The notes beneath the pieces were generated by a model. The model made no database searches. It was not told the origin of the DNA and saw nothing but the letters and a program-made list of their open reading frames with translations. From Chamaelirium japonicum (Eukaryota; Streptophyta; Magnoliopsida; Liliales; Melanthiaceae), in assembly GCA_947650365.1 (NCBI GenBank), contig OX393553.1, positions 69,800,463 to 69,864,462 on the forward strand: a stretch of 64,000 nucleotides of DNA, read 5' to 3'. This document shows positions 2,281 through 64,000 of the stretch, in pieces. Each line of letters starts with the position of its first letter. The stretch's first letter is position 1. The translations under genes were made by a program, and so were the position numbers.

Positions 2281-2284
2281 CGAA

Positions 2285-7180: not shown

Positions 7181-7209
7181 CCCCCTCTTGAGCCTTCCCC
7201 CTCTCCCTC

Positions 7210-7500: not shown

Positions 7501-7567
7501 TTTTTTTTTTCCTTTTTCTTCTTTTCTTTCCTTTTCTTTTATTTATTTATTTCTTTTCTTTTCTTGC
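7501..7567. repeat. Homopyrimidine tract (T/C)
   Basis: About 65 bp of the plus strand are almost only T and C, starting with a T run and containing CTTTTCTTTT and ATTTATTTATTT segments. It lies inside the U3 part of the element 2 LTR. Confidence 0.85.
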
Positions 7568-7674
7568 ATGGCCGGCCACCCCTTAAGGGGTTCGGATTTC
7601 TAGAAGGGGGCCGGGTGGGCCCTACTTGGGGATGGGTCTACCCGGCCTCTTGTTTGGCGCGGGTCGGGTCCGGT

Positions 7675-7780
7675 TGCGTGTCGGGTTTTGCCTCCGGATC
7701 GGCGCATGCGAGTCAGGTCCGGGTCCGAGTGCGTGTCGGGTTTGCCTCTGAATTAGTGCATGCGAGTCGGGTTCGGGTTA
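7675..7780. repeat. 55-bp direct repeat (2 copies) in element 2 U3
   Basis: The marker TGCGTGTCGGGTTT recurs at 7675 and 7730; GCATGCGAGTC recurs in the same register. The tract is GC-rich with repeated CGGGTC, unlike the neighbouring satellite. Confidence 0.8.
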
Positions 7781-7798
7781 GACACAATTTGTGTGTCT
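7780..7798. repeat. Short inverted repeat at the outer end of the element 2 LTR
   Basis: AGACACA (7780-7786) pairs with TGTGTCT (7792-7798) across five bases. A palindromic LTR end supports placing the boundary at 7801. Confidence 0.7.
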
Positions 7799-10700
7799 AC
7801 ACATACATATAATCACCCATACCCATCCTCACCCACTGAAACTCACACATACCTATCAAAAAAAACCCAATCTAATCCATACCAATTTATACCCACCCAT
7901 ACACACTCATACCCATCCTAATCCATGCATACTCACTCATACCCACCCATACCCACAACAATCCATCTATATTCACTAATATCTACCCCTATCTACCCTC
8001 ATTCACCCATACCATGCCCACCCCCATACCTATCCATACCAATATAAACACATTACTACCCCTTTATACCTGCCCATACCCAGTCTTACCCACGCCCATC
8101 CTCTATAATAACTATACTTACCCACTGAAACTCAACCATACAGATCCAAAACTACCTATACCCTCCCTTACCTACTTATACCTACTCATATCCACCAAAT
8201 CCCATCAGTATATAGCCATACTAATTTATACCCACCCATACACACCGAAGCCAACCTATACCGGCTTAAATCCACCTTTACCTATAGATACACCCCATAC
8301 CCACCACAACCCACGCCCATCAATTGAAACTTACCTATACCTACCAGAACCTACCTAAACCAACTCATACCTATCCAACCCACCCATACCAACTCATACC
8401 CACCCTCACCCTACCCATACCTTGTCCAACTCATTCATACCCACCCGTAACAATCTATAACCACCTATATGCACCCCAGTCACCTAACCATATGTACATC
8501 AACCCTGACCCACTCATACCTAACACAACCCACACATACTTATCGTCATTTATCCAAAACCACCCATACCCACCTCTACTTATCTATACCCACCTCGACC
8601 AACTTATGCACATCTATACCCACCACAACCTATCCATAAATACTCATACCGACCTATATGTATCCCTACCCACCATACCAACCAATACCTACCCCCACTC
8701 ACCTAGACCCACTAAAACGCACCCATACCTACCCCAACCCGCTCATACCAACCTCGATACACTCATACCCGCTCTAACCTACTCATACCCATCCTTTCCT
8801 AGCTTTATACATCCCTACCCCACCATACCCCCCCATATCCATTTTATACCCCCCATTCTACCCCATACCCACCTCAAACCAATACCCACCTAGCCACACT
8901 TACCCATTCATACCACCTCCCATCCTTACTTACTTGTACCCACCCATACCCATCCGCACATACCCATACCCACCCCTATATGCCCATATATACATATAAT
9001 CACCCATACCCATCCTCACCCACTGAAACTCACATATACCTACCCAAAAAAACCCAATCTAATTTAAACCCATTCATACCCGCCCATACACACTCATACT
9101 CATCCTAATCCATTCATACTCACTCATACCCACCCATACCCACCACCATCTATCTATACCCACTAATATCAACCCCTACCTACCCCCATTCACCCATACC
9201 ACGCCTGCCCCCCAAACCTATCCATACCAATACAAACCCATTACTACAACTTTATACATACCCATACCTATTCTTACCTACCCCCATCCTCCATACATAC
9301 CCATACCCATACCTACCCATTAAAACTCACCCATACAGATTTGAAACTACCTATACCCTCCAATACCCACGTAGACCTACTCATACCCACCAAATCCTAT
9401 CTGTACATAGCCATACCCATTTATACTGACCCATACACCACAACCTATGTCCATCAACTGAAACTTACCTATACCTACCCGAACCCACCTAAACCCACCC
9501 AAACTAACCCAAACCAACTTATACCCATCCAACCCACCCATAATAACTCATACCCACCCTCACCTTACCCATACCTAGTCTAATTTATTCATACCCACCC
9601 ACACCCATCTATACCTACCCATATGTACCCTACCCACCTAACTATATATATACCAACCCTAACCCACTTATACCCAACACAACCCACCTATACCTATCGT
9701 CATCTATCCAAACCCACTCATACCCACCCCTACTTATCTATACCCACCTCGACCTACCTATGCCCATTTATACCCATTCCAACCTACCCATACGTGCTCA
9801 TACCCATCTATATATCCCTACTCACCATACCAACCAATACCCATCCCCACTCACCCAGACCCATCCTTAACTACCAAAACCCACGCATACTTACCCTAAC
9901 CCATTCATACTAACCTCGACCCACTTATACACGTCCCAACCCACATATACCTACCCTTTTCTAGCTTTATACATCCTTATCCCAATATACCCCCTAATAT
10001 CTACTTTATACCCTCTATTCTACCCTATACCCACCTCAAACCAATACCCACATAGCCACACTTACCCATTGATACCTTCTACCACCCTTACTTACTTATA
10101 CCCACCCATACCCATCCCCACATACCCATACCCACCCGTATATGCCCATACATATATATAATCACCCATACCCATCCTCACCCACTGAAATACACATACC
10201 TATCTAAAAAAATCTAATCCAATCCATACCTATTCATACCCGCCCATACACACTCATACCTATTCTAATATATACATACTCACTCATACCCACCCATACC
10301 CACTATTATCCATCTATACCTAGTAATATCTACCCCAATTCACCCATACCATGCCTACCCACAATAGCTATCCATACCAATACAAACCCATTACTACCCC
10401 TTCATACCTACCCATACCCATTCTTACCCACCCCCATCCTCCATAATACCCATACATATACTTACCCATCAAAACTCACCCATACAGCTCCAAAACTACG
10501 TATACCCTCCTATACCCACTTATACCTACTCATACCTACTAAATCCTATCTGTACCTAGCCATGCCCATTTATACCCACCCATATACAATGAAACTCACT
10601 TATACCGGCTCAAATTCATGTTTACCTATAGATAAACCCCCATACCCACCACAACCCATGCCCATCAACTGAAACTTACCCATACCTACCCGAACGCACC

Positions 10701-13700
10701 TAAACCCACCCAAACTAACTTATACCCATCCAACCCACGCATAAAACTCATATCCACCCTCACCCTGTCCATACCCAGTCCAACTCCTTCATACCAACTC
10801 ACACCCATCGATACCTACCTATATGTAACCCACCAACCTAACCATATGTATACCAATACTAACCCACCCATACCTAACATAGCCCATCCATACCTATCGT
10901 CATCTATCCAAACCTACCCATACCACCCCTACTTATCTATACCCATCTCGACCTACCTATGCCCATCAATACCCACCCCAACGTACCCATACATACTCAT
11001 ACCCACCTATATGTATCCCTACCTACCATACCAACCAATACCCACCCCCACTCACCCAAACAAACCCTCAACCACCAAAACCCACATATACCTACCCTAA
11101 CCCACTTATACCAATCTCGACCCACTCATACCCACCCCAACCCACTCATACCCACCCATATTTATAGTTTCCTAGCTTTATACATCCCAACCCCACCATA
11201 TCCCTATATATCCAACTTATACCCCCCATTCTACCCCATACCCACCTCAAACCAATACCCACTCATCCACACTTACCCATTCATACCTCCTCCTACCTTT
11301 ACTTACTTGTACCCACCCATATCTATTCCCATATATTTATATCCACCCCAATATGCCTATACATACATATAATCACCCATACCATCCTCACCCACTAAAA
11401 CTCACACATACCTACCCAATAAAACCCAATCCAATCCATACCCATTCATACCCGTCACAACCAACGCCCATCAATTGAAACTTACACATACCTACCAGAA
11501 CCTACCTAAACCCACCCAAACCAACTCATACCCATCCAACCCATCTATAACAACTCATACCCATCCTCACCCTACCCATACCCAGTCAAACTCATTCATA
11601 CCCACCCGCACCTATCTATACCCATCTATATGCACCCCACCTACCTAACCATATATATACCAACCCCAACCCATTCATACCCAACATAACCTATCCATAC
11701 CTATCGTCTTCTATCCAAACCCACCTATACCAACCCCTATTTATCTATACCCACCTCGACCTACCTATGCCCATTTATACCCACCCCAATCTACCCATAC
11801 ATAATCATACCCACCTATATGTATCCCTACCCACCATACTAACCAATACCACTGACACTCACCCTGACCTACCCTCAACCACCAAAACTAACCCATACCT
11901 ACTCGAACCCACTCATACTAATCTTGACCCTCTCATACCCGCCCCAACCCATTCAAACCGACACATACCAACCCTTTCCTAGCTTTATATATCCCCACCC
12001 TACCATACCCCCCTATATCAACCTTATACCCCCCATTCTACCCCATACCCACCTCAAACCAACACCCACCCAACTACACTTACCCATTCATACCTCCTCT
12101 CACCCTTATTTACTTGTACCTACCCATATCCATCCCCTTATACCTATATACAACCATATATGCCTACACATATATATAATCACCTATACCCATCCTCACC
12201 CAATGAAACTCACATATACCTACCCAAAAAAACCTAATCCAATCCATACCCATTCATACCTGCTCATATATACTCATACCCATCCTAATCTATGCCTACT
12301 CACTTATAACCACCCATACCCACTATCATCCATCTAAACCCACTAATATCTCCCCTTACCTGCCCCTATTCACCTATACCATGCCCACGCACCATTCTTA
12401 TCCATACCAATACAAACCCATTACTACCCATTCATGCATACCCATACCTATTCTTACCCAACCCCATCCTCTATACATACCAATACCTATCTTACCCACC
12501 GAAGCTTACCCATACAGCTACGAAACTACCTATACCCTCCCATACCTACTTATACCTACTCATACCCACCAAATACCATCTGTATATAGCCATACCCATT
12601 TATACCCACCTATACACATCGAAACCCATATATGCCGACTTAAATCCACCTTTATCCACAGATATACCCCTATACCTACCACAACCCATGTCCATCAATT
12701 GAAACTTACCTATACCTGCCCAAATCTACCTAAATCCACCCAAACCAACCCAAACCAACTCATACCCATCCAATCCACCTATAGCAATTCATACCTATAC
12801 TCACCCTACCCATACCCAGTCTAACTCAATCATACCCACGCGCACCAATCTATACCTACCCATATGTACCCCACCTACCTAACCATATGTATACCAATCC
12901 CAACTTACTTATACCCAACACAACCCACCTATACCTATCGTCATCTATCAAACCCACCCATACCCACCCCTATTTATATATACCAAACTCGACCTACCTA
13001 TGCCCATCTATACCCACCCCAACCTACCCATACGTACTCATACCCACCTATATGTATCCTTACATCACCATACCAACCAAAACCCATGCCTACTTACCCA
13101 GACCCATACTCAACAACCAAAACCCACCCATACCTATCCCAACCTGCTCAAACCAATATCGACTCACTCATACCCGTCCCAACCAACTCATAGCCACCCA
13201 TACCTACCCTTTTCTAGCTTTATACATCCTTATCCCACCATACCCCCCCATATCGAATTTATTAGCCCCATTATACCTATACCCACCTCAAACCAATACC
13301 CACCTAGCCACACTTACCCATTCATACCTCCTTCTACCCTTACTTACTTGTACCTACCCATACCCATCCCCATATACCTATACCTACCCCTATATACCCA
13401 TACATATATATAATTACCCATACCCATCCTCACACACTGAAACTATCACATACCAATCCAAAAAAACCCAATCCAATCCATACCCATTCATACCCGCCCA
13501 TACACAGTCATACCCATCCTAATCCATGTATACTCACTCATACCCACCCATACCCACCACCATCCATCTATACCCACTAATATTTACCCCTACCTACCCC
13601 TATTCACCCATACTATACCTATTTCCCATACCTATCCATACCAATACAAACTCATTACTACCACTTTATAGCTACCCATACCTATTCTTACCTACCCAAA

Positions 13701-14613
13701 TCCTCTATATATACCCATACCTATATTTACCCATCGAAACTCACCCATACAGCTCCGAAACTACCTATACCCTCCCATACCCACTTATACCTACTCATAT
13801 ACACCAAATCCCATTTGTATATAGCTATACCCATTCATACCCACCCATACATAATGAAACCCACCTATACCGGCTCAAATCTACTTTTACCTATATATAC
13901 ACTCCCATACCAACGACAACCTATGCCCATCAATAAAAACTTACCCATACAAACTCGAACCCACCTAAACCCACCCAAACTAACTCAAACCAACTCATAC
14001 CCATCCAACCCACCCATTACAACTCATACCCACCCTCACCCTACCTATACCCAGTCAAAATCATTCATACCCATCCGTACCCATTTATATCCACCTATAT
14101 GCACCCCAACTTCTTAACCATATTTAGACCAACCCTAACCCACTTATACCCAATATAACCCACCCATACCTATCGTCATCTATCCAAACCCACCTATACC
14201 CACCCCTACTTATATATACCTACCTCGACATACCTATGCCCATCTATACCTACCCTAACCTACCTATAAGTACTCATACCCACCTGTATGTATCCCTACC
14301 AACCATACCAACCAATACCTACCCCCACTTACCTAGACCCATCCTCAACTATCAAAACCTACCCATACCTACCCCAACCCGCTCATACCAATCTTGACCA
14401 ACTCATACCAGCCCCAACCTACTCCTACCCAACTATACCTACCTTTTCCAAGTTTTATACATCCCTACCCCACAACACCCCCCTATATCCACTTTATACC
14501 ACCTCAAACCAATATCCACCTAGCCATACTTACCCATTCATACCTCCTCTCACCCTTACTTACTTGTACCCATCAATACCCATCCCCACATACCCATACC
14601 CACCCCTATATGC

Positions 14614-14616
<3 letters not shown>

Positions 14617-14707
<91 letters not shown>
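14617..14707. repeat. (TA)n microsatellite, about 45 repeats, at the monomer marker box
   Basis: An uninterrupted run of TA follows ATGCCCA and leads into AACCACCCATACC. In other monomers the same place holds only catacatatataatc, so this is a local expansion of a short TATATA seed inside the marker box. Confidence 0.95.
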
Positions 14708-14709
<2 letters not shown>

Positions 14710-15479
14710 CCACCCATACCCATCCTCACCTACTGAAACTCACACATACCTACCTAAAAAAACCCAATCCAATCCATACCCATTCATACCCGTCCATACA
14801 CACTCATACCCATCCTAATCCATGCATACTTACTCATATCCACCCATACCCACTACCATTCATCTATACCCAATAATATCTACCCCTATTCACCTATACC
14901 ACGCCCAACCCCTATGCCAATACAAACCCATTACTACCCCTTTATACCTATCCAGACCTATTTTTACCCAATCCGATCCTCCATGCAAACCCATACCATA
15001 CTTACCTATCGAAACTCACCAATATAGCTCTGAAACTACCTATACCCTCTAATATTAACTTATACCTACTCATACCCACCAAATCATATCTGTACATAGC
15101 TATACCTATTTATACGCACCCATACACAACAAAACCCACCTATGCCAGCTCAAATCTACCTTTACCTACAGATACACCCTCATACCCATCACAACCCATA
15201 CCTATCATCTGAAATATACCTATACCTACCTGAACCCACCTAAACCCACCCAAAACAACTTATACCCACCCAATCCTCCCATAACAAATCATACCTACCC
15301 TCACCCTACCCATACTAAGTCCAACACATTCATACCCACCCGTACCTATCTATACATACCTATATGTACCCCACCCACCTTACCATATATATAATAACCC
15401 TAACCCACTCATACCCAACACAACCAACCCATACCTATCGTCATCTATCCAAACCCACGCACACCCACCCCTAATTATC

Positions 15480-15899
15480 TATATCTACCTTGACCTACCT
15501 ATGCCCATCTATATCCACGCCAACTTACCCATACATATTCATACCCACCTATATGTATCCATACCCATGATACCAACCAATACCCACCCCCACTTACACA
15601 AACCAATCCTCAACCACCAAAACCAACCCATACCTACCCCAACCTGCTCATACCAACCTCGACCTACTTATACCAGCCCTAACCCACTCTATACCCACCT
15701 CGACCTACCTATGCCCATCAATACCCACCTAAACCTACCTATATATACTCATACCCACCTATATGTATCCCTACCAACCATACCAACCAATACCTACCCT
15801 TACTCACCCAGACCCACCCTCAACCACCAAAACCCACCCATACTTACCCCAACCTACTCATACCAACCTCGACCCTCTCATACCCGCCACAACCCACTC
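15480..15899. repeat. 210-bp tandem duplication inside one satellite monomer
   Basis: The step TATATCTACCTTGACCTACC at 15480 recurs as TATACCCACCTCGACCTACC at 15690, and both copies run in parallel through the CTCAACCACCAAAAC and CAACCTCGACC steps. The offset, 210 bp, is a multiple of the 10-bp unit. Confidence 0.85.
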
Positions 15900-18800
15900 A
15901 TACCAACCCATACCTATCCTTTCCTAGCTTTATACATCCCCACCCTACCATACCCCCATAAATCCACCTTTTACCCCCCATTCTACCCCATACCCACCTT
16001 AAACAAATACCCACCCATCCACACTTAACCATTCATACCTCTTCCCACACTTAATTACTTGTACCCACCCATACCCATCCCTACATATCCATACCCACCC
16101 TAATATACCCATACATACATATAATCACCCATACTCATCCTCACCAACTGAAACTCATACATACCTACCCAAAAAAACCCAATCCAATCCATACTCATTC
16201 ATACCCGCGCATACGCATCCATTCCCATCATAATCCAAGTATACCTACTTATATCCACCCATACCCACCACAATCCATCTATACCCACTAATAACTACCC
16301 CTATCTACCCCCATTCACCCATACCACGCCCACTCCCCATACCTATCCATACCAATACAAACCCATTACTACCCCTAAATACCTACCCATACCAATTATT
16401 ACCTACCCATATCCTCTATACATACCCATACCTATACTTACCTACTGAAACTCACCTATACAGCTCTAAAACTACCTATACCCTCCCATACCAACTTATA
16501 CCTACTCATACCTACCAAATCTTATTTGTACATAGCCATACCCATTTATACCCACCCATACATAACGAAACCCACCTATGCCGGCTCAAATCCACCTTTA
16601 CCCATAGATACAACCCCATACCTACCTTAACCCACGCCTATCAACTGAAACTTCCCCATACCTACCTGAACCTAACTAAACCCACCCAAACCAACTTATA
16701 CCCATCCAACTTACCGTCACCCTACCCATACCCAGTCTAACTCATTCATACCCACCCGCACCTATCTATACCAACCTATAAACACCCTACCCACGTAACC
16801 ATATGTATACCAACCCCAACTTTCTCGTACCCAATACAACCCACGCATACCTATCGTTATCTATCCGAACCCAACTATACCAACCCCTATTTATCTATAC
16901 CCACCTCGACCTATCTATGCCTATCTATACCCACCCCAACCTACCCATATATACTCATACCCACCTATATGTATTCCTACCCACCATACTAACCAATACC
17001 TACCCCCACTCACCCAGACCCACCCTCAACTACCAAAACCAAACCATACCTACTCCAATCCACACATACCAACCTCGACCCACTTATACTCGCCCCAACC
17101 CACTCAAACCTACCCATACCTACCCTTTGCTAGCTTTATACATCCCCAACCAACCATACCCATCCATACACACTCATACCCATTCTAATCCATGCATACT
17201 CACTCATAACAACCCATACCCACTACCATCCATCTATACCCACTAATATCTACCCCTATCTACCCTCATTTACCCATACCATACCCACCCCCCATACCTA
17301 TCTATAACAATACAAGCCCATTACTACCCCTACATACCTACCCATACCCATTCTTACCCACTCCCATTCTCCATACATACCCATACCCATACTTACCTAT
17401 CAAAGCTCACCCATACAGATTCGAAACTACCTATACCCTCCTATACCCACTTATACCTACTCATATCATCCAAATACTATCTGTATATAGCCATACCCAT
17501 TTATACCCACCCATACACACTAAAACGCACCTATATCGGATCAAATCTACCTTTATCCATAGATATACCCCAATACATACCACAACCTTTGCCCATCAAT
17601 TGAAACTTACCCTTAGCTATCCAAACCCACCCAAACTAACTCATACTCATCCAACCCACCCATAACAACTCATACCTACCTTTACCCTACCAATACCCAA
17701 TCCAACTTATTCATACCTACCCGCACTTATCTATACCTACCCATATACACCCTACCTACCTAACCATATATATACCAACCCCAACCCACTTATACCCAAT
17801 ACAATCCACCCATACCTATCGTTATCTATCCAAAACCACCCATACCTACTCCTACTTATCTATACCAACCTCGACCTACCTATGCCCATCTATACCTACC
17901 CTAACCTACCCATACGTACTCATACCCGCCTATATATATTCCTATATTACCATACCAACCAATACCTACCCCGACTTACCCAGACCCACCCTTAATAGAC
18001 AAAACCTACTTATAGCTACCCAACCCGCTCATACCAACCTCGACCCACTCATACCCGCCCCAACCCACTCATACCCACCCATACCTACCCTTTCCTTGAT
18101 TTTTACATCTCTACCCCACCATACCCCCCATATCTACTTTATACCCCCTATTCTACCCATACCTACCTCAAACCAATACCCACCTAGCTACACTTACCTA
18201 TTCAATACTCCTCCCACTCGCACTAACTTGTACCCACCCATATCCATCCCCAATTATCGATACCCATCCTTATATGCCCATACATATATATAATCACCCA
18301 TACCTATCCTCACCAACTGAAACTCATACATACCTACCCCTATCTATCCCCATTCACCCATACCACGCCTACTCCCTATACCTATCCATTCCAATATAAA
18401 CCCCATTACTACCACTTCATACCTACACATACCTATTCTTACCTACCCCCATCCTCTATACGTACCCATACCTATATTTACCCATCAAAACTTACCCATA
18501 CAGCTCCGAAACTACCTATACCCTCCCATACCCACTTATACCTACTCATATCCACCAAATCCTATTTGTATATAGCCATACCTATTTATACCCACCCATA
18601 CATAACGAAACCTACCTATGCCGGCCCAAATCAACCTTTACCCATAGATACACCCCTATACCAACCACAACCTATGCTCATTAGCAGAAACTTACCCATA
18701 CCTACCCGAACCAACCTAAACCCACCCAAACCAACCCAAACCAACTCATACCCATCCAACCCACCCATAACAACTTATACCCATCCTCACCTAACCCATA

Positions 18801-21800
18801 ATTAGTCTAACTCATTTATACCCCATTCGTACCCATCTATACTTACCTATATGCACCCCACCCATCTAACCATATGTATACCAACCCCAACCAACTCATA
18901 CCCAATATATCCAACCCATACCTATCGTTATCTATCCAAACCTACCTATACCCACCTCTACTTATCTATACCTACCTCGACCTGCCTAGGCCAATCTATA
19001 ACCACCCTAGCCTGCCCAAATATACTCATAGACACCTATATATATCCCTACCCACCATACTAACCAATACCCACCCACCCTCACCCAGACCCACCCTCAA
19101 CCACCAAAACCCGCCCATACCTACCCTAACCCGCTCATATCAACCTTGACCCACTTATACCCGCCCCAACCCATTTATACCCACCCATACCTACGCTTTT
19201 CTAGATTTATACAACCCCCCCACTATACCCCCCTATATTCACCTTATACCCCCTATTCTATCCTATACCTACCTCAAACCAATACCCACGCAGCCATACT
19301 TACCCATTTATACCTCCTCCTATCCTTACTTACTTGTACATACTATACATATCCCCATGTACCAATACTCACCCTTAAATGCCCATACATAGATATAATC
19401 ACCCATACCCATCCTCACGCACTGAAACTCACATAATCCTATCCAAAAAAACCCAATCGAATCTATACCCATTTATACCCGCCTATACACACTCACTCTT
19501 ATCCTAATCCATATATACTAACTCATACCCACCCATACCCACCACCATCCATATATACCCACTAATAACTACCCCTATATACCCCTATTCACCCATTTAT
19601 ACCCACCCATACACAACGAAACCCAACTATACCAGTTTAAATCTACCTTTACCCACAGATAAACCCCCATACCAACTACAACCCACGCCCATCAATTGAA
19701 ACTTACCCATAACTTCCCGAATCAGCCTAAACCTACCCAAACCAACCCAAACCAACCCAAACCAACTCATACCCTACCAACCCACCTATAACAACTTATA
19801 CCCACCCTCACCCAACCCATACCCAGTCCAACTTATTTATACATACCCGCACCCATCTATACCTACCTATATGCCCCCTATCAATTTAAGTATATGTATA
19901 CCAACCCCAACCCACTCATACCTAATACAACCTACCCATACCTATCATCTTCTATCCAAACCCACCTATACCCACCCTTACTTATCTATACCTCCCTCGA
20001 CCTACCTATGCCCATCTATACCCACCCCAAACCAACCCATACATACTCATACCCACCTATATATATCCCTACCCAACCCCACTCACCCAGACCCATGCTC
20101 AACCACCGAAACCTACCCATACCTACCCCAACCTGCTTATACCAACCTCGACCCACTCATACCCACCCCAACCCACTCATACCAACCCATACCTACCCTT
20201 TTCTAGCTCTATACATCCCCACCCCACCATACCCCCTTATATCCACTTTACACCCCCTATTCTACCCCATACCCACTACAAAGCAACACCCACCCAGCCA
20301 TATTTACATATACATACCTCCTCCCATCCTTACTAACTTGTACCCACCTATACCCTTCCCCACATACCCATACCCACCCCTATATGCCCATACATATATA
20401 TAATCACCCATACCCATCCTCACCCACTAAAACTCATATATACCTACCCAAAAAAACCTAATCCAATCCATACCATTCATACCTGTGCATACAAACTTAT
20501 ACCCATTCTAATACATGCATACTTACTCATACCCACCCATACGCACCACCATCCATCTATACCTACTAAAATCTACCCCTATATACCCCCACTTACCCAT
20601 ACCATGCCCACCCCCCAAACCTATTCATACTAATACAAACCCATTACAACCCCTTCATCCCTATTCTTACCCACCCCATCCTCCATACATACCCATACCC
20701 ATACTTACCCACCAAAACTCATACATACAGCTTCAAAACTACCTATTACTTTCCATATCCACTTATACCTACTCATACCCACCAAATCTTATTTGTACAT
20801 AACCATACCTTTTTATACCTACCCAAACACATCAAAACCCACCTATACCGGCTCAAATCAACCTTTACCCACATATACACCCCCATACCTGCCACAACCC
20901 ATGCCCATCAATTAAAACTTACCCATACCTACCCGAACCCGTCTAAACCCACCCAAACCAACCCAAACCAACTCATACCTATCCAACCTACCCATAATAA
21001 CTTATACCCACCCTCACCCTACCCATACCCAGTCTAAATCATTCAAACCCACCCGTACCCATCTATACCTACCTATATGTACCCCACGCATCTAACCATA
21101 TGTATACCAACCCCAACCAACTTATACCCAATATAACCCACCCATACCTATCATCATCTATCCATACCAACCAATACCCACCCCTATTTATCTATACCTA
21201 CTTTGACCTATCAATGCTTATCTATACCCACCCCAACCTATCCATACGCACTTATACACACCTATATGTATCCCTACCTACCATACCAATCAATACCTAC
21301 CCCCACTCAACCAGACCTATCCTCAATAACCAAAACCCACCCATACCTTCTCCAACCCACTCACACCAACCTCGACCCACTCATACCCGCCCCAACCAAC
21401 TTATACCCACCCATACCTACCATTTCTAAGCTTTATACATTCCTATCCAACTGTACCCTCCCATATCCACTTTATACACCACATTCTACCCCATACCCAC
21501 CTCAAACCAATACCCACCTAGCCACACTTACCCATTCATACCTTCTTCCACCCTTACTTACTTGTACCTACACATACCGATCCCCATATATCTATATCCA
21601 CACATATATGCCCATATATTCATATAATCACCCATACCCATCCTCACCCACTGAAACTCACATATACCTACCCAAAAAACCCCAATCTAATCCATACCTA
21701 TTCATACCCGCTCATACACACATATCTATCCTAGTCCATGCATACTCACTCATACCCACCCATACCCACCACCATCCATCTATACCCACTAATATCTAAC

Positions 21801-50500: not shown

Positions 50501-52430
50501 AAACCCATACTTACCCATCGAAACTAACCCATACAGATCCGAAACTACCTATACACACTTATACCTGCTCATACCTACCAAATCCCATCTGTATACAACT
50601 ATACCCATTTACACCCACCCATACATATCGAAACCCATATATGCAGTCTTAAATCTACCTTTACTCACAAATACACCCCCATACCAGCCACAACCCATAT
50701 CCATCAACTAAAACTTACCCATACCTACCCAAACCTACCTAAACCCACCCAAACCAACCCAAACCAACTCATAACCATCCAACCCGCCCATAACAACTCA
50801 TACCCACCCTCACTTATCAATACCTACCTATGCCCATCTATACCCACCCCAACCTACCCATAAGTACTTGTACCTACCTATATGTATCCCTACCGACCAT
50901 ACCAACCAATACCTATCCCCACGTACCCAGACCCACCCTTAACCACCAATACCCCCCAACCCGCTCATACCAACCTCGACCAACTTATACCAGCCCCAAA
51001 CAACTAATACCTACCTTTTCATAGCTTTATACATCCCCACCCTACTATACCCCCCCATATCCACTTTATACCCCCTATTTTACCCTATACCCACCTCAAA
51101 CAAATATCCACCTAGACATACTTACTCATTTATACCTCCTTCCACCCTTACTTACTTGTACCTACCTATACCCATCCCTACATACCCAAACCCACCACTA
51201 TATACCCATACATATATATATCACCCACACCAATCCTCACCCATTGAAACTTAGACATATCTATCCAAAAAATCCCAATCTAATCCATACCTATTCATAC
51301 CCGCCCATACGCAGTCATACCCATTCTAATTCATGCATACTCACTCATATCCATCCATACCTACCACCATCCTTCTATACCCACTAATATCTACCCCAGT
51401 CACCCATACCTCGCCTACCCCCCATACCAATCCATACCAATTCAAACCCATTACTACCCCTTCATACCTATCCAAACCTATTCTTAGCCACCCCCATCCT
51501 CCATACATACCCATACCGATACTTACCTACCGAAATTCACCTATACAGCTCCGAAACTACCTATACCCTCCCATACCCAATTATACCTACTCATACCCAC
51601 CAAATCACATTTGTACATAGCCATACCCATTTATACCCATCTATATATAATGAAACCTACTTATGCCAGCTCAAATCTACCTTTACTCACAGATATATGC
51701 TTATACTCACTACAACCCATGCCCATCAACTGAAACTTACCTGTACCTAACCGAACCCACCTAAACCCACTTAAGCTAACGCAAACCAACTCATACCCAT
51801 CCAACCTACCAATAACAACTCATATCTACCCTCACCCTACTCATACAATGTCCAACTCATTCATACCCACCCGTACCCATCTATACATATCCATATATAC
51901 CATACCTACTTAACCATATATATACTAACCTCAACCCACTCATACCCAATACAACCCATCCATACCTATCCATACCCACCCTTAATTATCTTTACCCACC
52001 TTGACCTACCTATGCCAATCTATACCCACTCCAACCTACGCATACATACTCATACCGACCTATATATATCCCTACCCACTATATAAACTAATACCTACCC
52101 TCACTAACCTAGACCCACCCTCAACCACCAAAACCCACCCATACCTACCCCAACCAATTTATACAAACCTTGACCCATTCATACTAGCCCCAACCTACTT
52201 ATACCCACCATACCTACCCTTTCCTAGCTTTATAATCCCCACCACACTATACCCCCCCATATCCACTTTATACCCACCATTCAACCCTATACCCACCTCA
52301 TACCAATATCCACTAAGCCACACTTACCGATTCATACCTTCTCCTACCCTTACTTACTTGTACTTACCCATACCCATCCCCACATACCCATACCCACCCC
52401 TATATGCCCATACATATATATAATCACCCA
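41501..52430. repeat. Satellite block 3: long-type monomers, several with private deletions
   Basis: Marker boxes are at about 41503, 42292, 43528, 44746, 45953, 46830, 48050, 49176, 50196, 51220 and 52432. Spacings of about 1.2 kb alternate with shortened ones (789, 877, 1020, 1024), which come from different deletions: for example near 42265 and 46745 (loss toward the marker box), 49795 and 50815. Confidence 0.85.
52368..52402 (-). other. Representative G-quadruplex-type tract, repeated in most monomers
   Basis: Just before the marker box the plus strand has six C runs of three or four (CCCATACCCATCCCCACAT, then ACCCATACCCACCCC). The minus strand thus has six GGG/GGGG runs separated by loops of one to five bases, which meets the usual G3+N1-7 rule. 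Equivalent tracts lie at the same place in other monomers, for example around 8943-8977 and 38208-38244. Folding is inferred, not shown. Confidence 0.7.
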
Positions 52431-55400
52431 TACCCATCCTCACCCACTGAAACTCATACATACCTACCTAAAAAAACCCAATCTAATCCATACCTATTCA
52501 TACCTGCCCATACACACTAATACCCATCCTTATCCATACATACTCACTATACTCATCCTAATCTATGCATACAAACTCATACCAACCTCTACCTACCACT
52601 ATCAATCTATACCTACTAATACCTACTCATACCTACTAAATCTCATCTTTACATATCCATACCCATTTATACCACCTATATATATCGAAACCCACCAATG
52701 TCGACTCAATTTTAGTTTTACCGATAGAGACACCCCCATACCTACTACAACCCATATCTATCAACTGAAACTTACCCATACCTACCCGAACCCACCTAAA
52801 CCCACCCTAACTAACCCAAACCAACTCATACCTATCCAACCTACCCATGACAACTCATACCCACCCTAACCCTATCCATACCCAGTCCAACTCATTCATA
52901 CCTACCCGCACCTATTTATACCCACCCATATACACCCCACACACCTAACCATATGTATACCAACCCTAACCCACTCATACCCAACATAACCCACACATAC
53001 CTATCGTCATATATCCAAACCTACCCATACCTACCCTTACTTATCTATACCCACCTCGACCTACTTATACCCATCCCAACCTACACACAACTCATACCCA
53101 CCTATATATATCCCTACCCATTATACCAACTAGTACCCACCCCCACTCACCCAAATATACCCTCAACCAATAAAACTAACCCATACATACCCTAAACAGC
53201 TCATACCAACCTCGACCCACTCATACCTACCCTGACCCACTCATACCTGCCCAAACCCATTCATACTCACCCATACCTATACTTTCCTAGCTTTATACAT
53301 CCCCATGCCACCATACCCCCCTATATCTACCTTATACGCCCTATTTTACCCCATGCCCACCTCAAACCAATACTCACCCAGCTACACTTACACATTTATA
53401 CCTTATCCCACCCTTACTTACTTGTACACACCCATACCCATCCCCATATACCCATACCCACCCCTATATGCCCATGCATACATATAATCACCCATACCAA
53501 TCCGCACCCACTGAAACTCGTACATACCTACCCAAAAAACCTAATCCAATCCATACCCATTCATACCCGCCTATACATACTCATACCCATCCTAATCCAT
53601 ATATACTCACTCATACCTACCTCTACCTACCACCATCTATCTATACCCACTTATACCTACTTATACCCACCAAATCCCATCCTTACATAGCCATACGTAT
53701 TTATACTTACCCATACACACCAAAACCCACCAATGCCGGCTCAAATCTAGCTTTACCTATAGATACACTCCCATACCCACCACAACCTACATCCATCAAC
53801 TAAAACTTACCCATACCTACCTGAACCCACCAAAACCCACCCAAACTAACCCAAACCAACTCATACCCATCCAACCCAACCATAACAACTCATACCCACC
53901 CACCCTATCCATACCTTATCTAACTCATTCATATCTACCCGTACCTATCTATACCCACCCATATCTACCCTATCTACCTAACCATATATATACCAACCCC
54001 AACCCATTCATACCTAACATAACCCACCCATACCTATTGTCATCTATCAAAACCCACCCATACCTACCCCTATTTATCTATACCCACCTCAACGTACTTA
54101 TGCCCATCTATACTCACCCTAACCTAACCATACATACATATACCAACTTATAAGTATCCCTACCCACTATACCAATAAATAACTACCCCCACCCAGACCT
54201 ACCCTCAACCACCAAAACCTACCCATACCTACCCCAACCTGCTCATACCAATCTCGACCCACTCATACCTGACCCAACCCACTCATACCCACCAATACCT
54301 ATCATTTTCTAGCTTTATACATCCCCACCCCATCATACCCCCCTATATCCACCTTATACCCCCCATTCTACCCCATGCCCACTTTAAACCAATACCCACC
54401 CAGCCATACTTACCTATTTATATCTTCCCCGACCCTTACTTACTTGTATCCACCCATACCCATCCCCACATACCTATACCTACCCTTATATGCCCATGCA
54501 TACATATAATCACCCATACCCATCCCCACATACCCATACACACCCATATATGCCTATAAAATAATCACCCATACCCATCCTTACACACTAAAACTCACAC
54601 AAACCTACGCAAAAAAACCCAATCCAATCCATACCCATTCATACTTGCCTATACACACTCATACCCATCCTAATCCTTGCATACTCTCTCATACCGACCC
54701 CTACCTATGACAATCCATCGATACCTACTTATACCTACTCATACCCATCAAATTACATCTTTATATAGCCATACCCATTTATACCCACCCATACCCACCA
54801 CAACCCATGTCCATCAATTGAAACTTACCCATGCCTACCCGAACCCATATAGACCCACCCAAACTAACCCAAACCAACTCATACCCATCCAACCTATGCA
54901 TAAAGACTCATACCCACCCTTACCTAACCTATACCTAGTCTAACTCATTTATACCCACGCGTAGCCATCTATACCCACCCATATACACCCCACCCACCTA
55001 TCTATATGCATACCAACCCCAATCCATTCATATCCAATACAACCCACCCATACTTATCGTCATCTATCCAAACACACCCATACCCACCCCTACTTATCTA
55101 TACCCACCTCGACCTACCTATGCCCATCTATACCCACCCCAACTAACCCATACATACTCATATCCACTTATATGTATTTCTACCCACTATACGAACTAAT
55201 ACCCACCCCCACTCACCCAGACCCACCCTCAACCACCAAAACCCACCCATATCTACCCCAACCCACTCATACCAACCTCGACTTACTCATACCCGCCCCA
55301 ACCCATTCATACCCACCCATACCTACCCTTTCCTAGCTTTATACATCCCAAATGCACCATACCCCCCATATCCACTTTATACCCCGTATTTAACCCCATA

Positions 55401-56000
55401 CCAACCTCAAACTAACATCCACTTTGCTATACTTACCCATTTATATCTCCTCCCACCCTTACTTATTTATACCCACTCATACCTATCTCTATATATCCAT
55501 ACCCACCCCTATATACCCATACATATATATAATCACCCTTACCTATCCTCACCTACTGAAACTCACACATATCTACCCAAAAAAACCCAATCCAATTCAT
55601 ATCCATTATAACTCGCCCATACACACTCATATCCATCCTAATCCATGCAAACTAACTCATACCCACTATTACATACCACCGTCCATTTATACATAATTAT
55701 ACCTACTCATACCCACAAAATCCCATCTTTAAAAAGCCATACCCATTTAAACCCACCCATATACACCGAAACCCACCAATAACGGCTCAAATCCACCTTT
55801 AACCATAGATACACCCTTATACCTACCACAACGCATGCCCATCAACTGAAACTTACCAATACCTACCCGAACCCACCTAAACCCACCCAAACCAACCCAA
55901 ACCAACTCATACCCATCCAACCCATACATAACAACCTAAACCAACTCATACCCATACACCTGCACCCATCTATACGTACCTATATATACCCCACCCACCT
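52431..56000. repeat. Satellite block 4: short-type monomers (about 1.02 kb)
   Basis: Marker boxes are at about 52432, 53486, 54508 and 55531. In each monomer the step CTATACCCACTAATATCTAC is joined nearly directly to CTTATACCTACTCATACC, removing about 200 bp that long-type monomers have (the part with the ACAAACCCATTACTACC and GCTCCGAAACTACC steps). The diagnostic bases ATCTTTACATAGCC and CACCAATGCCGGCTC replace ATCTGTACATAGCC and CACCTATGCCGGCTC, with some variation. Confidence 0.82.
54508..54570. repeat. 54-bp duplication of the marker box
   Basis: AATCACCCATACCCATCC at 54508 is followed 54 bp later, at 54562, by a second AATCACCCATACCCATCC after a second ATATATGCCTATA step. The box and the C-rich tract before it are present twice. 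Confidence 0.8.
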
Positions 56001-59000
56001 AACGATATGTATACCAACCCCAACCCACTTATACATAATAAAGCCAACCCAAATTTATTGTCATCTATCCAAACCTACCCATACCCACCCCTACTTATCT
56101 ATACCCACCTTGACCTACCTATGCCTATATATACCCACCCTAACCTACCCATAAGCTCTCAAACCCACCTATATATATCCCTACTCACCATACCAATCAA
56201 TACCCACCCCCACTCACCCAGACCCACCTTCAACCACTAAAACCCACCCATACCTATCCCAACCCACTCATATCAACCTAGTCCCACTCATAGCAGCCCC
56301 AATCCACTCATATCGACCCATACCTACCGTTTCATAGCTTTATATATCCCTACGCCACTATACCCCCTATATCCACTTTATATCCCCCATTCTACCCTAA
56401 ACCCACCTCAAACCAATACCCACCTAGCCACAATTACCCATTCATACCTCCTCCCATCTTTACTTACTTGTACCCAACCATACCCATCCCCACATAGCCA
56501 TACCCATTACTATATGTCCATACATATATATAGTCACCCATACCCATCCTCACCCACTGGAACTCACATATACCTACCCCTAAAAAATCTAATCCAATCC
56601 ATACCCATTCATACCCGCCCATATACACTAATACCCATCCTAATCCATGCATACTCACTCATACCCACCCTCACCCTACCCATACCTAGTCCAACTCATT
56701 TATACCCACCCGCACCTATCTATACCCACCTATATGCACCCTACTTACCCAACCATATGTATATCAACCTTGACTTACTCATACCCAACACAACCCACAT
56801 ATAATTATCGTTATCTATCCAAACCTACCCATACCCACCCCTACTTATCTATACCCACCTCAACCAACCTATATGTATCTATATTCACCCCAACCTACCC
56901 ATACATACTCATAACCACTTATATGTATCCCTACCAACTATACCAACCAATACCTACCCCCACTCACTAGACCCACCCTCAACCACCAAAACCCACCCAT
57001 ACCTACCCCAACCCACTCATACCAACCTCGACACACCTATACCCACTCTAACCCACTCATACCCACTCATACCTTCCCTTTCCTAGCTTTATATATCCCC
57101 ACTCCACCATACCCCTCCATATCCACCTTATACCCCATATTGTACCCCATACCCAAACCAACACCCACCCAGCCACACTTACCCATTTATACCTATTCCC
57201 ACCTTTACTTACTTGTACCCACCCATACCCATCCCCACATACCCATACTTTCCCATTAAAACCCAATCCAATCCATACCCATTCATACCCGACCAAATAC
57301 ACTCATACTCATCATAATCCATGCATACTCACTCATACCCACCCATACCCACCACTATCCATTTATACCCACTAATATCTACCCATACCTACCCCCATTC
57401 ACCCATACCACGCCTATACCCTATACCTATCCATACCAATATAAACCTATTACTACCCTTTTATACCTACCTATACCCATTCTTACCCACCCCCATCCTC
57501 CATACATACTCATACCCATACTTACCCGCTGAAACTCACCCATACAGATTCGAAACTACCTATACCCTCCCATACATACTTATACCTATTTATACCAACC
57601 AAATCCCATCTGTACATAGCCATACCCATTTATACTCACCCATACACATCGAAACCCACCTATGCCAGCTCAAATCCACCTTTACTCGTAGATATACCTC
57701 CATACCACCACAACCTATGCCTATAAACTGAAACTTACCCATACCTACCCGAACCCACCTAAACCCACCCAAACCAACCCAAACCAACTCATACCCATCC
57801 AACCAACCTATAACAACTTATTCCCATCCTCACCCTACCTTTACCCAGTCTAACTCATTTATACCCACCCACACCTATCTATACCCACCTATATTCACCC
57901 CACTCACCTAACCATATGTATACCAGTCTCGATCTACTCATACCTAACACAACCCACCCATACTTATCGTTATCTATCAAAACCCATTTATACCCATCCC
58001 TACTTATATATACCCACCTCGACCTACCTATATCTATCTATCCCCACCCCAACCTACCTATACATACTCATACCCACCTATATATATCCCTACCCACCAT
58101 ACCAACCAATACCTACGCCAACTCACCCAGACTCACCCTCAATCACCAAAACCCACCCATACCTACCTTAACCTGCTCGTAGCAACCTCGACACACTCAT
58201 ACTGGCTCTAACCCACTCATACATAGCTTTATACATCACCACCCCATCATACCCCCCCATATCCACCTTATACCTCCCCATTATACCCCATACCCAATTA
58301 AAACCAACACCCACCCAGCCACACTTACCCATTCATACCTCCTCCCACCCTTACTTACTTATACCCACCCATACCTATCCCCACATACCCATACCCAGCC
58401 CTATATGCTCATATATATATAATCACCCATACTTTCGTCACTCACTGAAACTCACATATACCTATCCAAAAAAACCCAATCTAATCCATACCCGCCCATA
58501 CACACTCATACCCAACCTAATCCAAGCATACTCATTCATACCCACCCATACCCACCACCATTCATCTATACCCACTAATATCTACCCCTACCTACTCATA
58601 TTCACCCATACCATACCCACCCTCTATACCTATCCATACCAATATAAACCCATTACTACCCCTTCATACCTACCCATACCTATTCTTACCAACCCCCATC
58701 CTCCATACATACACATACCCATACTTACCCACTGAAACTCACCCATTCAGATTCGAAACTACGTATACCTTCCCATACCTACTTATACCTATTTATACCC
58801 ACCAAATCCCTTCTTTACATAGTCATACCTATTTATACCCATCTATACACACCGAAACCCACCAATATCGACTCAAATCTAGCTTTACCCATAGATACAG
58901 GCCCATACCCACCACAACCCATATCCATCAACTTAAACTTACCCATACCTACCCGAACCCATATAAACCCACCCAAACTAACCCAAACCAACTCATACCT

Positions 59001-60129
59001 ATCTAACCCACCCATAACAACTTATACCCACCCTCAACCTATCCATACCCAGTCGAACTCATTCATACCCACCCGCACCCATCTATATCCACCCATATAT
59101 ACCCCACCCACCTAACCATATGTATACCAACCCCAACCTACTCATACCCAATATAATCCGCCCATACCTATCGTCATATATCCAAACCCACTCATACCTA
59201 CCCCTATTTATCTATACCCACCTCGACCTACCTATGCCCATTTATACTCACCCCAACCTAACCATATACATTCATACCCATCTATATGTCTCCCTACCCA
59301 CCATACCAACCAATACCCACCTCACTCACCCAGACTTATCCTCAACCAACAAAACCCACCCATACCTACCCCAACCAGCTTATACCAACCTCGACCCACT
59401 CATACCAGCCCCAACCCACTCATACCCACCCATACCTATCCTTTTCTAGCTTTATACATCCCCACCCCACCATACCCCCCCATATCCACCTTATACCCCC
59501 CATTCTACCCCATGCCCACCTCAAACCAATACCCACCCAGCCACACTTACCCATTTATACCTCCTTCCACCCTTACTTAATTGTACCCACCCATACCCAT
59601 CCTCACCCCTATATGCCCATACATATATATAATCACCCATACCCATCCTCACCCACTGAAACTCATGCATACCTACCAAAAAAAACCTAAATCCAATCCA
59701 TACGCCATTCATACCCGCCCATTTACACTTATACCCATCATAATCCTTGCATACTCACTCATACCCATGCCTACCTACCACCATCAATCTATACCCACTA
59801 ATATCTACCCCTACCTACCCTTATTCACCTATAACACGGCCATCCCCTATACCTATCTATACCAATACAAACCCATTACTACCCCTTATACCTACCCATA
59901 CCCATTCTTACCCACCCCTATCCTCTATACATACCCATATCCATACTTACCCACGGAAACTCACCCATACAGATCCGAAACTACCTATACACTCCAATAC
60001 CCACTTATACCTACTCATACCCACCAAATCTTATCTATACATAGCCATACCTATTTATACCCACCTGTACACACCGAAACCCTCATATGCCGGCTCAAAT
60101 CCACCTTTACCCACAGATACATCCCCATA
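56001..60129. repeat. Satellite block 5: long-type and chimeric monomers
   Basis: Marker boxes are at about 56532, 58421 and 59631; one box is lost near 57250. The monomer starting at 58421 is full length (it keeps the 200-bp part) but after about 58800 carries the short-type diagnostic bases (CTTCTTTACATAGTC, CACCAATATCGACTC, TCTAGCTTTACCC). Confidence 0.8.
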
Positions 60130-61640
60130 TACCAACGTACACCCACCCATCTATATGTACACCCACTCATTCATACGTATAAGCACACACATACATACAT
60201 ACCCCTTACCTACTTATGTATGTATTCACCCACCTAACCACATACACTACCCAACCCACACACATAAGTCAACCCACCTTACCTACCCATACCCAACTAT
60301 ACACCCATACTCACACACCCATCCATTCATACATACGAAACCATATATTCACCCATCTATACGTACACACCTACGTATACCCTTCTACATACACACCTAT
60401 ATAGGCACACCTATATATTTACCAATATAAACACATACCTACCCACTCATCTATATACACACCCATGCACACCCACCCACGTACCCACATATACCCGCCC
60501 ACCAATCTATGCACACCCCATCCATAAATACATACTCACCCACCCACATATATAAACCTACCCATATACCCACCCACCAAACTACTCACGTAAATATCTA
60601 CGCATATGGTCTATACCCAGCCACTTACACCCACCCACCTATCCACTAACTTACGTATACCCATACACCAACCCATATACACCCACCCACATACTTATCC
60701 ACCCCCACATATACCTTGGCATACCTACCTATCTACCCCCCTATACCCACCTTTATATATATATACCTACCAACTCACACCCACTTACCCATCTACCCAT
60801 ATAAACCAATTAACATACACATACCTACTACCTATTTGTATACCCACTCACCCACCAACACGTATATACCCACCCAGTTACCCACTCACACATACTCGCC
60901 TACCAACCTACACATACTTCCCTATCCATCTACCCACGCATATATACCCGCCAATCCACCTACCCATACAAACAACCATTTACCCATGCACCCACCGACA
61001 TATATATACCCACCCACCTATCTATCGACTCATACACATACACCTATTTACCTATACCCACTCATCCAAACACATATACCAACCCACCCACCCCCACACA
61101 CACTCATCCATATATATACACTTGTACACATATACGTACGTACTTACTTACCTACCCATATACACATACCCAACCACAGACCCAATTATACTAATATATA
61201 CCTACCCACGTACCCATACAAACCCATCCATATACACCCACTCATATACACACATACTCACCCACCTACGCAACTATTCATACATACCCATCCATACACA
61301 TACATACCCACTTATTCACGCACACTAACACACCAATGCATATACTCACGCACCTACCTACCCATTCATGTACACCAATACACCCATTCATGCATAAAAA
61401 TATACTATCTACCCACCCAATAACATACCCACCCATACATACACCTACTCACCGACCCACACACATATACCTAAGCACCCACCTAACCACGCAAACACCA
61501 ACCCACCTACCTATACATGTACAAACCACCACATATATATCTTCCACCTACCCAACAACAAATCCAACTACCTACCTATTAAATATCCACATATCCACGC
61601 ACACATATACCTACCCACATACATACATACATAAGCGCCC
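60130..61640. repeat. Island of different simple-sequence texture within the satellite
   Basis: From about 60130 the regular monomer text stops after the CAGATACATCCCCATAT step and is replaced by about 1.5 kb rich in CCCACCCA, TATACACCCA, ACATACATACAT and GTACAC steps. A local 20-bp rhythm is visible at its start (GTACACCCACCCATCTATAT, then GTACACCCACTCATTCATAC), but I could not fix one period. The plus strand is still G-poor, with somewhat more GTA and TACGTA steps. Normal monomer text resumes near 61645 (ACTCATACCCATTCTAATCC). No gene is supported. Confidence 0.75.
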
Positions 61641-64000
61641 ACCCATATATTTACTCATACCCATTCTAATCCACGCATACTCACTCATACCAACCCCTAC
61701 CTACCACCATCTATCTATACCCACTAATATTAACTCATACCCACCAAATTCTAATTTTACATAGCCATACCCATTTATACCCACCCATACAGACCGAAAC
61801 CCACTAATGCTTGTTCAAATCCAACGTTATCTATAGATACACCCCCATACCCGCCACAACCCACGTTCATCAACTAAAACTTACCTATACCTACCCGAAC
61901 CCACCTAAACCAACCAAAACTAACCCAAACCAACTCATACCTATCCAACCCACCCATAACAACTCATACCTATCCAACCCACCCATAAAACCTCATACCC
62001 AATATCACCCTATCTATACCCAGTCCAACTTATTCATACCCATCCATACCCATCTATACCCACCTATGTACTCAACCTACCTAACCATATGTATACCAAT
62101 CCCAACCCACTCATACCCAACACAACCCATCCATACCTATCATCATCTATCCAAATAATACCCACCCCTACTTATCCAGACCTACCTTCAACCACCAAAA
62201 CCCACATATACCTACCCCAACTAGCTCATACCAACCTCGACCCACTCATACCCACCCAAACCCACTCATACCTACCAATACCTACTATTTCCTAGCTTTA
62301 TACATCCCCATCCTACCATACCCCCCTATATCTACCTTATACGCCCTATTCTACCCCATGTAGACCAAAACCAATATCCACCTAGCCACACTTACCCATT
62401 TATACCTCTTTCCACCCTTATTTATTTATACCCACCCATACCTATAGTTACCCCTATATGCCTATACATATATTTAATCACCCATACCCATCCTTACCAA
62501 CTAAAACTCATGCATACCTACCCAAAAAAACCCAATCTAATCCATACCTATTCATACCCACCCATACCCACTCATACATATCCTAATCCATACATATTCA
62601 CTCATACCCATCCTTACCTAGCACCATCCATCTATACCAACTTATACCTACTCATACCCACCAAATCCTATCTTTATATAGCCATACCCATTTATGCCCA
62701 CCCATACACACTGAAACCCACTAATACTAGCTCAAATCTAGCTTTATCCATAGAAACACCCCCATATCCACCACAATCCATATCTATTACCTAAAACTTA
62801 TCTATACCTATCCAAACCCACCAAAACCCTCCCAAACTAACCCAAACCAACTCATACATATCCAACCCAACCAAAACAACTCATACCCACCCTCACCCTA
62901 TCTATACCTAGTCCAACTCATTCATACCCACCCGTACCCATCTATACCCACCTATATGTACCCCACCCACATAACCATATGTATATCAACCTTAACCTAT
63001 TTATACCTAACATAACTCACCCATACCTATCATCATCTATTCAAACTAACCCATACCTACCCCTACTTATCTATACCCACCTTGCCTTACCTATGGCCAT
63101 CTATACCCACCCCAACCTACCCATACGTACTCATACCCACCTATATGTATCCCTACCCACTATACCAACCAATACCCACCCCTACTCACCCAGACCTACC
63201 CTCAACCACCAAAATCGACCCATACTTACCCAAACCAGCTCATACCAACCTCGACCCACTCATACCCACCCCAACCCACTCATACCCACCTATACCAACC
63301 CTATTCTAGCTTTATATATCCTCAGCCCGTCATACCCCACCATATCCACCTTATACCCCATATTGTACCCCATGCCCACCTCAAACTAATACCCACCCGG
63401 CCATATATACCCATTTATACCTCTTTCTACCCTTACTTACTTATACCCACCCATACCGATCCCAATATACCCATACCTACCTTTATATATCCAAATTTAT
63501 ATAATCACCCATACCCATCCTTACCCACTGAAACTCATACATACCTACCTAAGAAAACCCAATCCAATCCATACCCATTCATACCCAGCCATACACACTC
63601 ATACCCATCCTAATCCATGCATACTCACTCATACCCACCCTTACCTACGACAATCCATCTATACTTACAAATACTTACTCATACCCGCTAAATCCTATCT
63701 TTACATAGTCATACCCATTTATACCCACCCATACATATCGAAACCTACCAATATCGGCTCAAATCCAGCTTTACTTATAGATACATTCCCATACATACCA
63801 CAACCCACGTCCATTAACTGAAACTTACCCATACCCACCTGAACCCACCTAAACCCACCCAAACTAACACAAACTAACTCATACCCATCTAACCCACTCA
63901 TAACAAGTCATACCCACCCTAACCCTATCCATACCTAGTCCAACTCCTTCATACCCACCCGCACTATCAATACCTACCTATATATACCCCACCCACCTAA
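61641..64000. repeat. Satellite block 6: short-type monomers to the right edge
   Basis: Marker boxes are at about 62475 and 63503. All three members have the short-type join (near 61730, 62637 and 63660) and TCTTTACATAG-like or ATTTTACATAG diagnostic bases. The array continues beyond the window. Confidence 0.82.
61931..61988. repeat. 29-bp direct repeat (2 copies)
   Basis: CAACTCATACCTATCCAACC followed by CACCCATAA at 61931 recurs at 61960. A short slippage-type duplication inside a monomer. Confidence 0.75.

Follow-up and report, generated by a model that had tools for sequence, protein, structure and literature searches.

The mouse major satellite has a larger monomer that goes back to a short (9-bp) ancestor and shows nested intermediate levels, and the telomere-similar centromeric DNA of potato forms large kilobase arrays. 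In human satellites 2 and 3 (HSat2 and HSat3) the ancestral unit is CATTC, and kilobase units of 1.77 kb on chromosome 1 and 3.6 kb on the Y (DYZ1) are described in the part of PMC4022460 consulted. Drosophila decamer satellites such as Prodsat, AATAACATAG, are classed as 10-bp repeats in the available part of PMC8122249. Here we describe a decamer-based satellite array in 64,000 bp of DNA from the plant Chamaelirium japonicum (the window, contig OX393553.1, in our numbering C5:69800463-69864462). Genome-wide searches covered 1.52 Gb in 3,253 contigs.

HSat2 and HSat3 are the nearest parallel in architecture, as a short ancestral unit and kilobase units occur in both. They differ in that they are human, form multi-megabase arrays and are based on a pentamer of other sequence, while the unit here is a decamer; CATTC ancestry was not found, the fitted unit being CATACCCACC. 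Prodsat shares the 10-bp unit length, but its sequence is different and the part of its source seen mentions no kilobase monomer for it. The potato DNA is likewise a short-repeat-derived plant DNA, with a telomere unit there and a non-telomeric decamer here (PMC3276127, in the part seen). Several Lathyrus satellites resemble our array in their association with long terminal repeat (LTR) elements, but the origin from retroelement subrepeats that the consulted part of PMC7004042 reports for them is not seen here.

We consider it probable that the array belongs to a satellite family, likely of pericentromere-type heterochromatin and without a coding role, which would have formed by decamer expansion, spread, decay, insertion and local re-amplification. 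Our best guess for its function is heterochromatin near centromeres.

The array and its decamer

The array occupies 7802..60126 on the plus strand, with all monomers in a single orientation, as judged from autocorrelation, circular alignment, the excess of C over G and the flanking DNA. After an interruption it resumes at 61641..64000 (+) and, as circular alignment and flanking DNA indicate, runs on into the DNA to the right of the window. The original prediction had given 7802..64000 as one array; its start holds, set by an LTR that ends at 7801, whereas 60127-61640 is a different repeat. Flanking DNA showed that the satellite extends beyond the window on both sides (L007 and L008 on the left, L011-L014 on the right). 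One piece on the right includes 7.5 kb of N inside the array (L012:1501-9000). From 7802 to the window end we counted 22,770 C, 18,342 A, 13,404 T and 1,683 G (3%), and C exceeds G in all 56 of the 1-kb windows of 7802-64000. Within the window the array spans 56 kb and comprises about 50 monomers in one orientation; together with the family's presence on seven large contigs, this is what is expected of satellite DNA.

Identity at lag 10 is 0.495, versus a mean of 0.328 (standard deviation 0.002, maximum 0.333, z 82) in 100 dinucleotide shuffles; at lag 20 it is 0.497 versus 0.329 (standard deviation 0.002), and lags 20, 30, 40 and 100 likewise lie above all 100 shuffles. Markov models up to the 6th order attain no more than 0.409 and 0.355 at lags 10 and 20, respectively. 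Chance low complexity is ruled out by the lag-10 excess over both kinds of null. The signal runs throughout, the lowest lag-10 identity of any 1-kb piece of the array being 0.395. The fitted unit is matched at 68.8%; two of its positions are A in 93% and 91% of units, and most others vary between C and T. Further autocorrelation peaks at lags 4, 6, 14 and 16 fit a unit composed of ACCC + ACCCAT. In-register runs of at least 50 bp hold 83.5% of bases, the longest being 512 bp. The predicted decamer that keeps its register over long stretches was thus borne out, and the excess over dinucleotide shuffles, which had been set beforehand as the test, lay beyond every one of them.

A 10-base period might also be kept by selection for rotational nucleosome positioning through phased TA steps, with no need for decamer inheritance. 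The phasing of TA steps is indeed exactly 10 bp (0.227 at lag 10 and still 0.105 at lag 100), close to the helical repeat of DNA. However, the period is common to TA, AT, CC and CA steps, C>T change in the same context varies with decamer phase (for CA from 0.124 to 0.249) without coming near zero in any, and the insertion or loss of whole decamers (see below) points to a repeat unit. We regard this explanation as very improbable. That the array is a degenerate telomere-like repeat was disfavoured already and is hardly credible: although the C-rich strand has CCC runs, CCCTAA occurs 34 times (no null was computed for this count) and the part of PMC3276127 available reports telomere-similar DNA in potato centromeric regions, the 56 kb hold the plant heptamer CCCTAAA 5 times and TTTAGGG not once, the unit has a length of 10 bp and not 7, and the clusters lie in the interior of the five contigs measured.

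Other roles and relations were considered for the array as well. We infer that it is non-coding, and neither 10 nor 1,235, the monomer length, is divisible by 3; stop-to-stop frames reach at most 528 codons on the plus and 81 on the minus strand, and a coding role was not supported. A G-quadruplex array is a weak candidate, with 151 potential motifs on the minus strand versus 107 (standard deviation 7) in 30 first-order Markov sequences, only a 1.4-fold excess. Matches to a 20-mer at two IMG/VR loci are due to chance, as both share a single unrelated sequence context that does not match the window at E 1e-10, and a search of prokaryote genome contigs gave 0 matches.

The monomer and its local blocks

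The wraparound monomer consensus from circular alignment measures 1,235 bp. Leaving out the interruption, copies of more than 700 bp show an identity of 0.875-0.926 (about 90%) to this consensus and of about 84% to each other. The spacing from start to start has a median of 1,120, a mean of 1,093 and quartiles of 975-1,206 bp (51 copies with at least 600 columns and more than 85% identity), and plain autocorrelation is weak near the monomer lag (0.343 at lag 1,206 versus 0.328). A kilobase monomer is therefore real, as had been predicted, but the ~1.19 kb assigned to it is neither the full-length unit nor a fixed spacing. Its size varies because of deletions; 12 of 49 copies, for instance, lack most of monomer columns 175-370.

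Among the indels of at least 5 bp, 53 of 114 are exact multiples of 10; once events of the same size in the same column bin are merged, 31 of 80 remain (about 10% expected; binomial p 1e-11 for the merged set). This argues that the decamer still acts as a unit of sequence loss or gain. Two points tell against so simple a view: the largest deletions are not multiples of 10 (one of 207 bp occurs 9 times), and the apparent direction of decamer indels (34 of -10, 4 of +10) hinges on a consensus that keeps columns present in 40% of copies.

Decamers within the monomer consensus match the decamer consensus at 75%, versus about 90% for monomer copies and their own consensus, so decamer expansion preceded monomer amplification. 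The decamer is detectable inside the monomer and is older than it, as in a kilobase satellite derived from a short unit of the HSat2/3 kind. As the first step, a C-rich ten-base unit (ACCC + ACCCAT) would have expanded to a tract of ~1.2 kb and diverged, an order shown by these decamer and monomer comparisons. Between the 10-bp unit and the 1.2-kb monomer, no further level of repetition was found in the consensus (the best internal 60-bp match was 0.80, the mean of a unit-shuffled null 0.816), in contrast to the mouse major satellite with its intermediate levels. The proposal of a plant satellite grown out of a decamer is supported by the 75% and 90% matches and by the whole-decamer indels. 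It had also been called unusual, which is true in part, since kilobase units from a short unit are already known in human satellites 2 and 3 (PMC4022460, part consulted).

Two local features lie at the monomer level. One monomer contains a 210-bp tandem duplication (84% matches) at 15478-15908. Between two others, a (TA)n microsatellite lies at 14616..14705 (end approximate; no strand assigned; seen in the circular alignment and the sequence itself), at the monomer junction where the consensus reads CATACATACAT and then ATAAT.

A tandem block of 5,086 bp is present in about 2.28 copies at 24638..36223 (+; ends approximate, taken from 150-bp windows), as found from diagonals and monomer coordinates. 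It comprises five monomers of 1139+719+1186+1108+934 bp. Its long diagonals at lags 5086, 5085 and 10171 are 95-98% identical, and one 242-bp piece is 90.5% identical. Adjoining the block, a segment at 23372..24681 (+) is duplicated at lag 2,651, being 96.6% identical to 26023-27332. A 30-mer common to all three block copies has 4 genome matches, three of them here and one in the inverted C5 array. The block is a recent local duplication.

The predicted repetition of a 5,086-bp block is thus real, but it is local and spans 20.6% of the array. Likewise, of the three levels that had been proposed, decamer and monomer stand, while "higher-order block" overstates a third level that is one recent local event. 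Features of a higher-order repeat are seen in this 20.6% and on C12; elsewhere in the window monomers share about 84% identity, whatever the separation tested. On C12, lags of 1,121, 2,220 and 6,165 bp, at identities that reach 98.8%, reveal local re-amplification, and the DNA at 46.30-46.33 Mb (L028-L030) is a young re-amplification of the same satellite with a median monomer identity of 0.956. The last step of the proposed history would thus be the local re-amplification of small stretches, observed as the 5,086-bp block here and as the 1.1/6.2-kb repeats on C12.

Distribution, relatedness and decay

An exact 32-mer from the satellite has 43 genome matches (C1 4, C2 2, C5 17, C8 1, C9 6, C11 9, C12 1, C227 3), the last on a small contig that also carries the satellite, and an exact 40-mer has 27 (C5 11, C11 1, C12 15). 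As the two fall on different contigs, single patterns miss clusters. A 16-mer gave 375 matches (30 for its reversed control) and a 21-mer gave 127. Among the matches listed, clusters lie at 38.2-38.4 Mb on C1, 36.3 on C2, 17.2-17.3 on C8, 52.3-52.4 on C9, 29.0-29.2 on C11 and 46.3 on C12; on C5 they lie at 68.94-69.14 Mb (reverse) and 69.76-70.07 Mb (forward; to ~70.1). The two C5 clusters thus face opposite ways about 0.6 Mb apart, as if split by an inversion. Clusters are interior on C1 (137.3 Mb long), C2 (122.5), C5 (93.2), C11 (69.9) and C12 (69.9). Around a lone 16-mer match on C4 (L031) there was no array. From match densities in the window's 56 kb (9 of 127; 23 of 375 less the 30 of the control; 2 of 43), we estimate a genome total of 0.8, 0.84 and 1.2 Mb, respectively.

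For relatedness we sampled the window and 24 10-kb pieces at clusters on five chromosomes, partly retroelement. The comparison comprised 208 monomers; it draws on loci other than L003-L006, L009, L010, L012 and L031-L033 and includes none from C8, C9 or C227. Median monomer identity was 0.83-0.855 in every comparison within and between groups, except inside C12 (0.956). Within the window, neighbouring monomers had 0.839 and those 30 apart 0.836, and the increase to 0.862 at separation 5 is due to the 5,086-bp block. In a tree of 141 of the 208 monomers, 92.9% of the length lies in terminal branches. Monomers from different chromosomes resemble one another about as closely as adjacent ones do, a pattern that fits a single episode of spread after which the copies decayed largely on their own. 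Two observations weigh against an entirely clean picture. Monomers were kept only with at least 600 columns and more than 85% identity, the others being dropped; and the star-like tree is imperfect, with some clustering by origin: 13 of 50 cherries join monomers of one group (7.6 expected, standard deviation 2.6) and 34 of 50 monomers of the same chromosome (25.0 expected).

In the second step, then, amplification would have taken one stretch of ~1.24 kb as its unit and carried it to seven or more chromosomes, apparently in one episode. The star-like relations in the five sampled chromosomes point to this; the route was presumably rolling circle or unequal exchange.

This distribution also bears on whether the family is an active centromere satellite, in which homogenisation would maintain chromosome-specific higher-order blocks. 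A single narrow cluster on most bearing contigs, interior on the five measured, and the local higher-order blocks on C5 and C12 would agree with it. Against it, the complete list of 43 32-mer matches has none on C3, C4, C6, C7 and C10, although so thin a pattern (2 matches in 56 kb) may miss small arrays; the assembled amount, an estimated 0.8-1.2 Mb, is small, unless arrays have collapsed; neighbours are no more alike than distant monomers, unlike in a homogenising array; and an old transposable element sits in the array. We consider an active centromere unlikely, and favour a decaying satellite of probable pericentromeric heterochromatin.

In this decay one substitution prevails. Relative to the consensus, C>T makes up 2,930 of 5,316 substitutions, and T>C 314. 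By context, and leaving aside the second and third block copies, C>T rates are 0.257 in CWG, 0.208 in CAH, 0.184 in CG, 0.131 in CCG, 0.080 in CTH and 0.063 in CCH. Bootstrap intervals over columns are disjoint for CAH (0.192-0.223) and CCH (0.057-0.070); CAH exceeds CCH in 9 of 9 array groups, and CA exceeds CC in 6 of 6 decamer phases listed for both (more than 150 sites). C>A and C>G do not track this pattern, except at CGC (C>A 0.150). The spectrum resembles that in Gouil and Baulcombe (PMC5221884), and we infer that methylation may have driven the decay of the array. The third step would accordingly be a largely independent decay of copies, mostly C-to-T with a context bias like that of plant methylation, together with whole-decamer indels.

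Several details do not fit this reading easily. No more than 6 of 9 array groups have a lower rate in CCG than in CWG, and these two rates rest on 8 and 6 columns, respectively. CTA, which Arabidopsis and maize favour among CHH sites, shows no increase here (0.080), while CAC does. Finally, in the pair of LTRs described below the rates are 0.238 in CG, 0.156 in CA, 0.122 in CC and 0.077 in CT; because this CA effect is weaker, something besides methylation may contribute to the array's strong CA bias.

Of the 22,770 plus-strand cytosines scored, 21,619 (94.9%) are in CHH, and the minus strand has 1,683 cytosines in all. As plus-strand cytosines are thus nearly all CHH and those on the minus strand few, methylation of the array could not be copied by symmetric CG/CHG maintenance. 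It is a tentative idea, which we hold to be possible but less than even in likelihood, that the array is a natural substrate for one-strand methylation and its C>T spectrum the fossil record of this over millions of years. If so, methylation would have to be rewritten in each cycle by a chromomethylase or a small-RNA pathway, and the family would allow the upkeep of asymmetric silencing to be tested at the sequence level.

Insertions, age and standing of the family

The left end of the array is set by the 5' LTR of a minus-strand LTR retroelement (5152..7801, -). Its partner LTR, 90.2% identical, begins outside the window near C5:69778804; the 5-bp target-site duplication CATAC flanks both sides, with satellite outside. 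Because the element inserted there, 7802 is not the true end of the array, and the satellite is older than the element. The LTRs differ at 246 of 2,636 sites, a Kimura two-parameter distance of 0.102. At a commonly used rate of 1.3e-8 per site per year, and if that rate holds, the insertion took place about 4 million years ago. Insertion of retroelements, of which the one at the window's left edge is observed, would form the fourth step, before local re-amplification.

A second minus-strand retroelement is nested in the first. Its probable LTR lies at 3441..4083 (-; termini set by eye), where 3433-4086 has a 99.4% copy in the DNA to the left; its protease and reverse transcriptase frames, interrupted by stops, lie at 2..2284 (-) and match Pfam PF13650 and PF00078 above the cut-offs and PF13975 just below. 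Within 1-7801, the outer element's LTRs of ~2.65 kb carry tandem subrepeats of 77 and 82 bp, and the inner LTR has a GC-rich one of 43 bp.

Retroelements beside and inside the arrays might suggest that the satellite arose from tandem subrepeats of an LTR retroelement, an origin reported for several Lathyrus satellites in the part of PMC7004042 consulted. However, the subrepeats of the window's own retroelements (43, 77 and 82 bp) differ in sequence and are not G-poor, and in the small part of the genome read no decamer-bearing element was seen. Such an origin is quite improbable, and expansion of a decamer remains the preferred one.

The interruption at 60127..61640 (+; 1.5 kb, ends approximate), delimited by alignment and autocorrelation, is likewise poor in G but belongs to a different repeat, with a period of 4 bp and a weak signal at 10 bp. 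Its identity is 0.534 at lag 4 versus 0.341 in a Markov null, and 0.382 at lag 10 versus 0.331. A genome search gave at least 124 matches (40 of 120 candidates scored). Among the matches listed, those of at least 100 bp at 78-90% are all on C5 at 69.92-70.09 Mb, and weaker ones (63-72%) are spread over many contigs. The C5 relatives lie at 69.93, 69.99, 70.04 and 70.09 Mb, about 46-65 kb apart, and a piece at 33.3 Mb on C2 also matches the tetramer repeat. This is a second repeat family, perhaps related to the decamer satellite through the ACCC tetramer. One 40-mer across the left junction found only itself at up to 3 mismatches, a weak probe for copies about 83% identical.

Many small contigs, numbered C265 and up, together carry 131 scored rbcL matches, almost all of equal score, which suggests that some of the unplaced assembly is plastid DNA. 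The rbcL frames are open, as expected of a plant, and the best PDB match is 1wdd, a rice entry, so that a monocot is likely.

In the open-licence PMC literature, no paper on satellites, judged by title and abstract start, contained any of six 15-mers taken from the decamer array. Among the open-licence PMC titles listed on plant, decamer, telomere-like, kilobase and strand-asymmetrically methylated satellites, none names this satellite, a search that a description under the species name could escape. As far as these searches could tell, this is a new satellite family of an already known general kind.

Its value lies in what a single array allows to be read: the order of events, from decamer to monomer, to spread over several chromosomes and to local re-amplification, with an LTR insertion that supplies a clock. 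The near-equal similarity of monomers between chromosomes and between neighbours makes the family a clean example of a satellite in which little concerted evolution is going on; with almost all of its cytosines on one strand, it also provides a useful natural system for testing asymmetric (CHH) methylation in plants.

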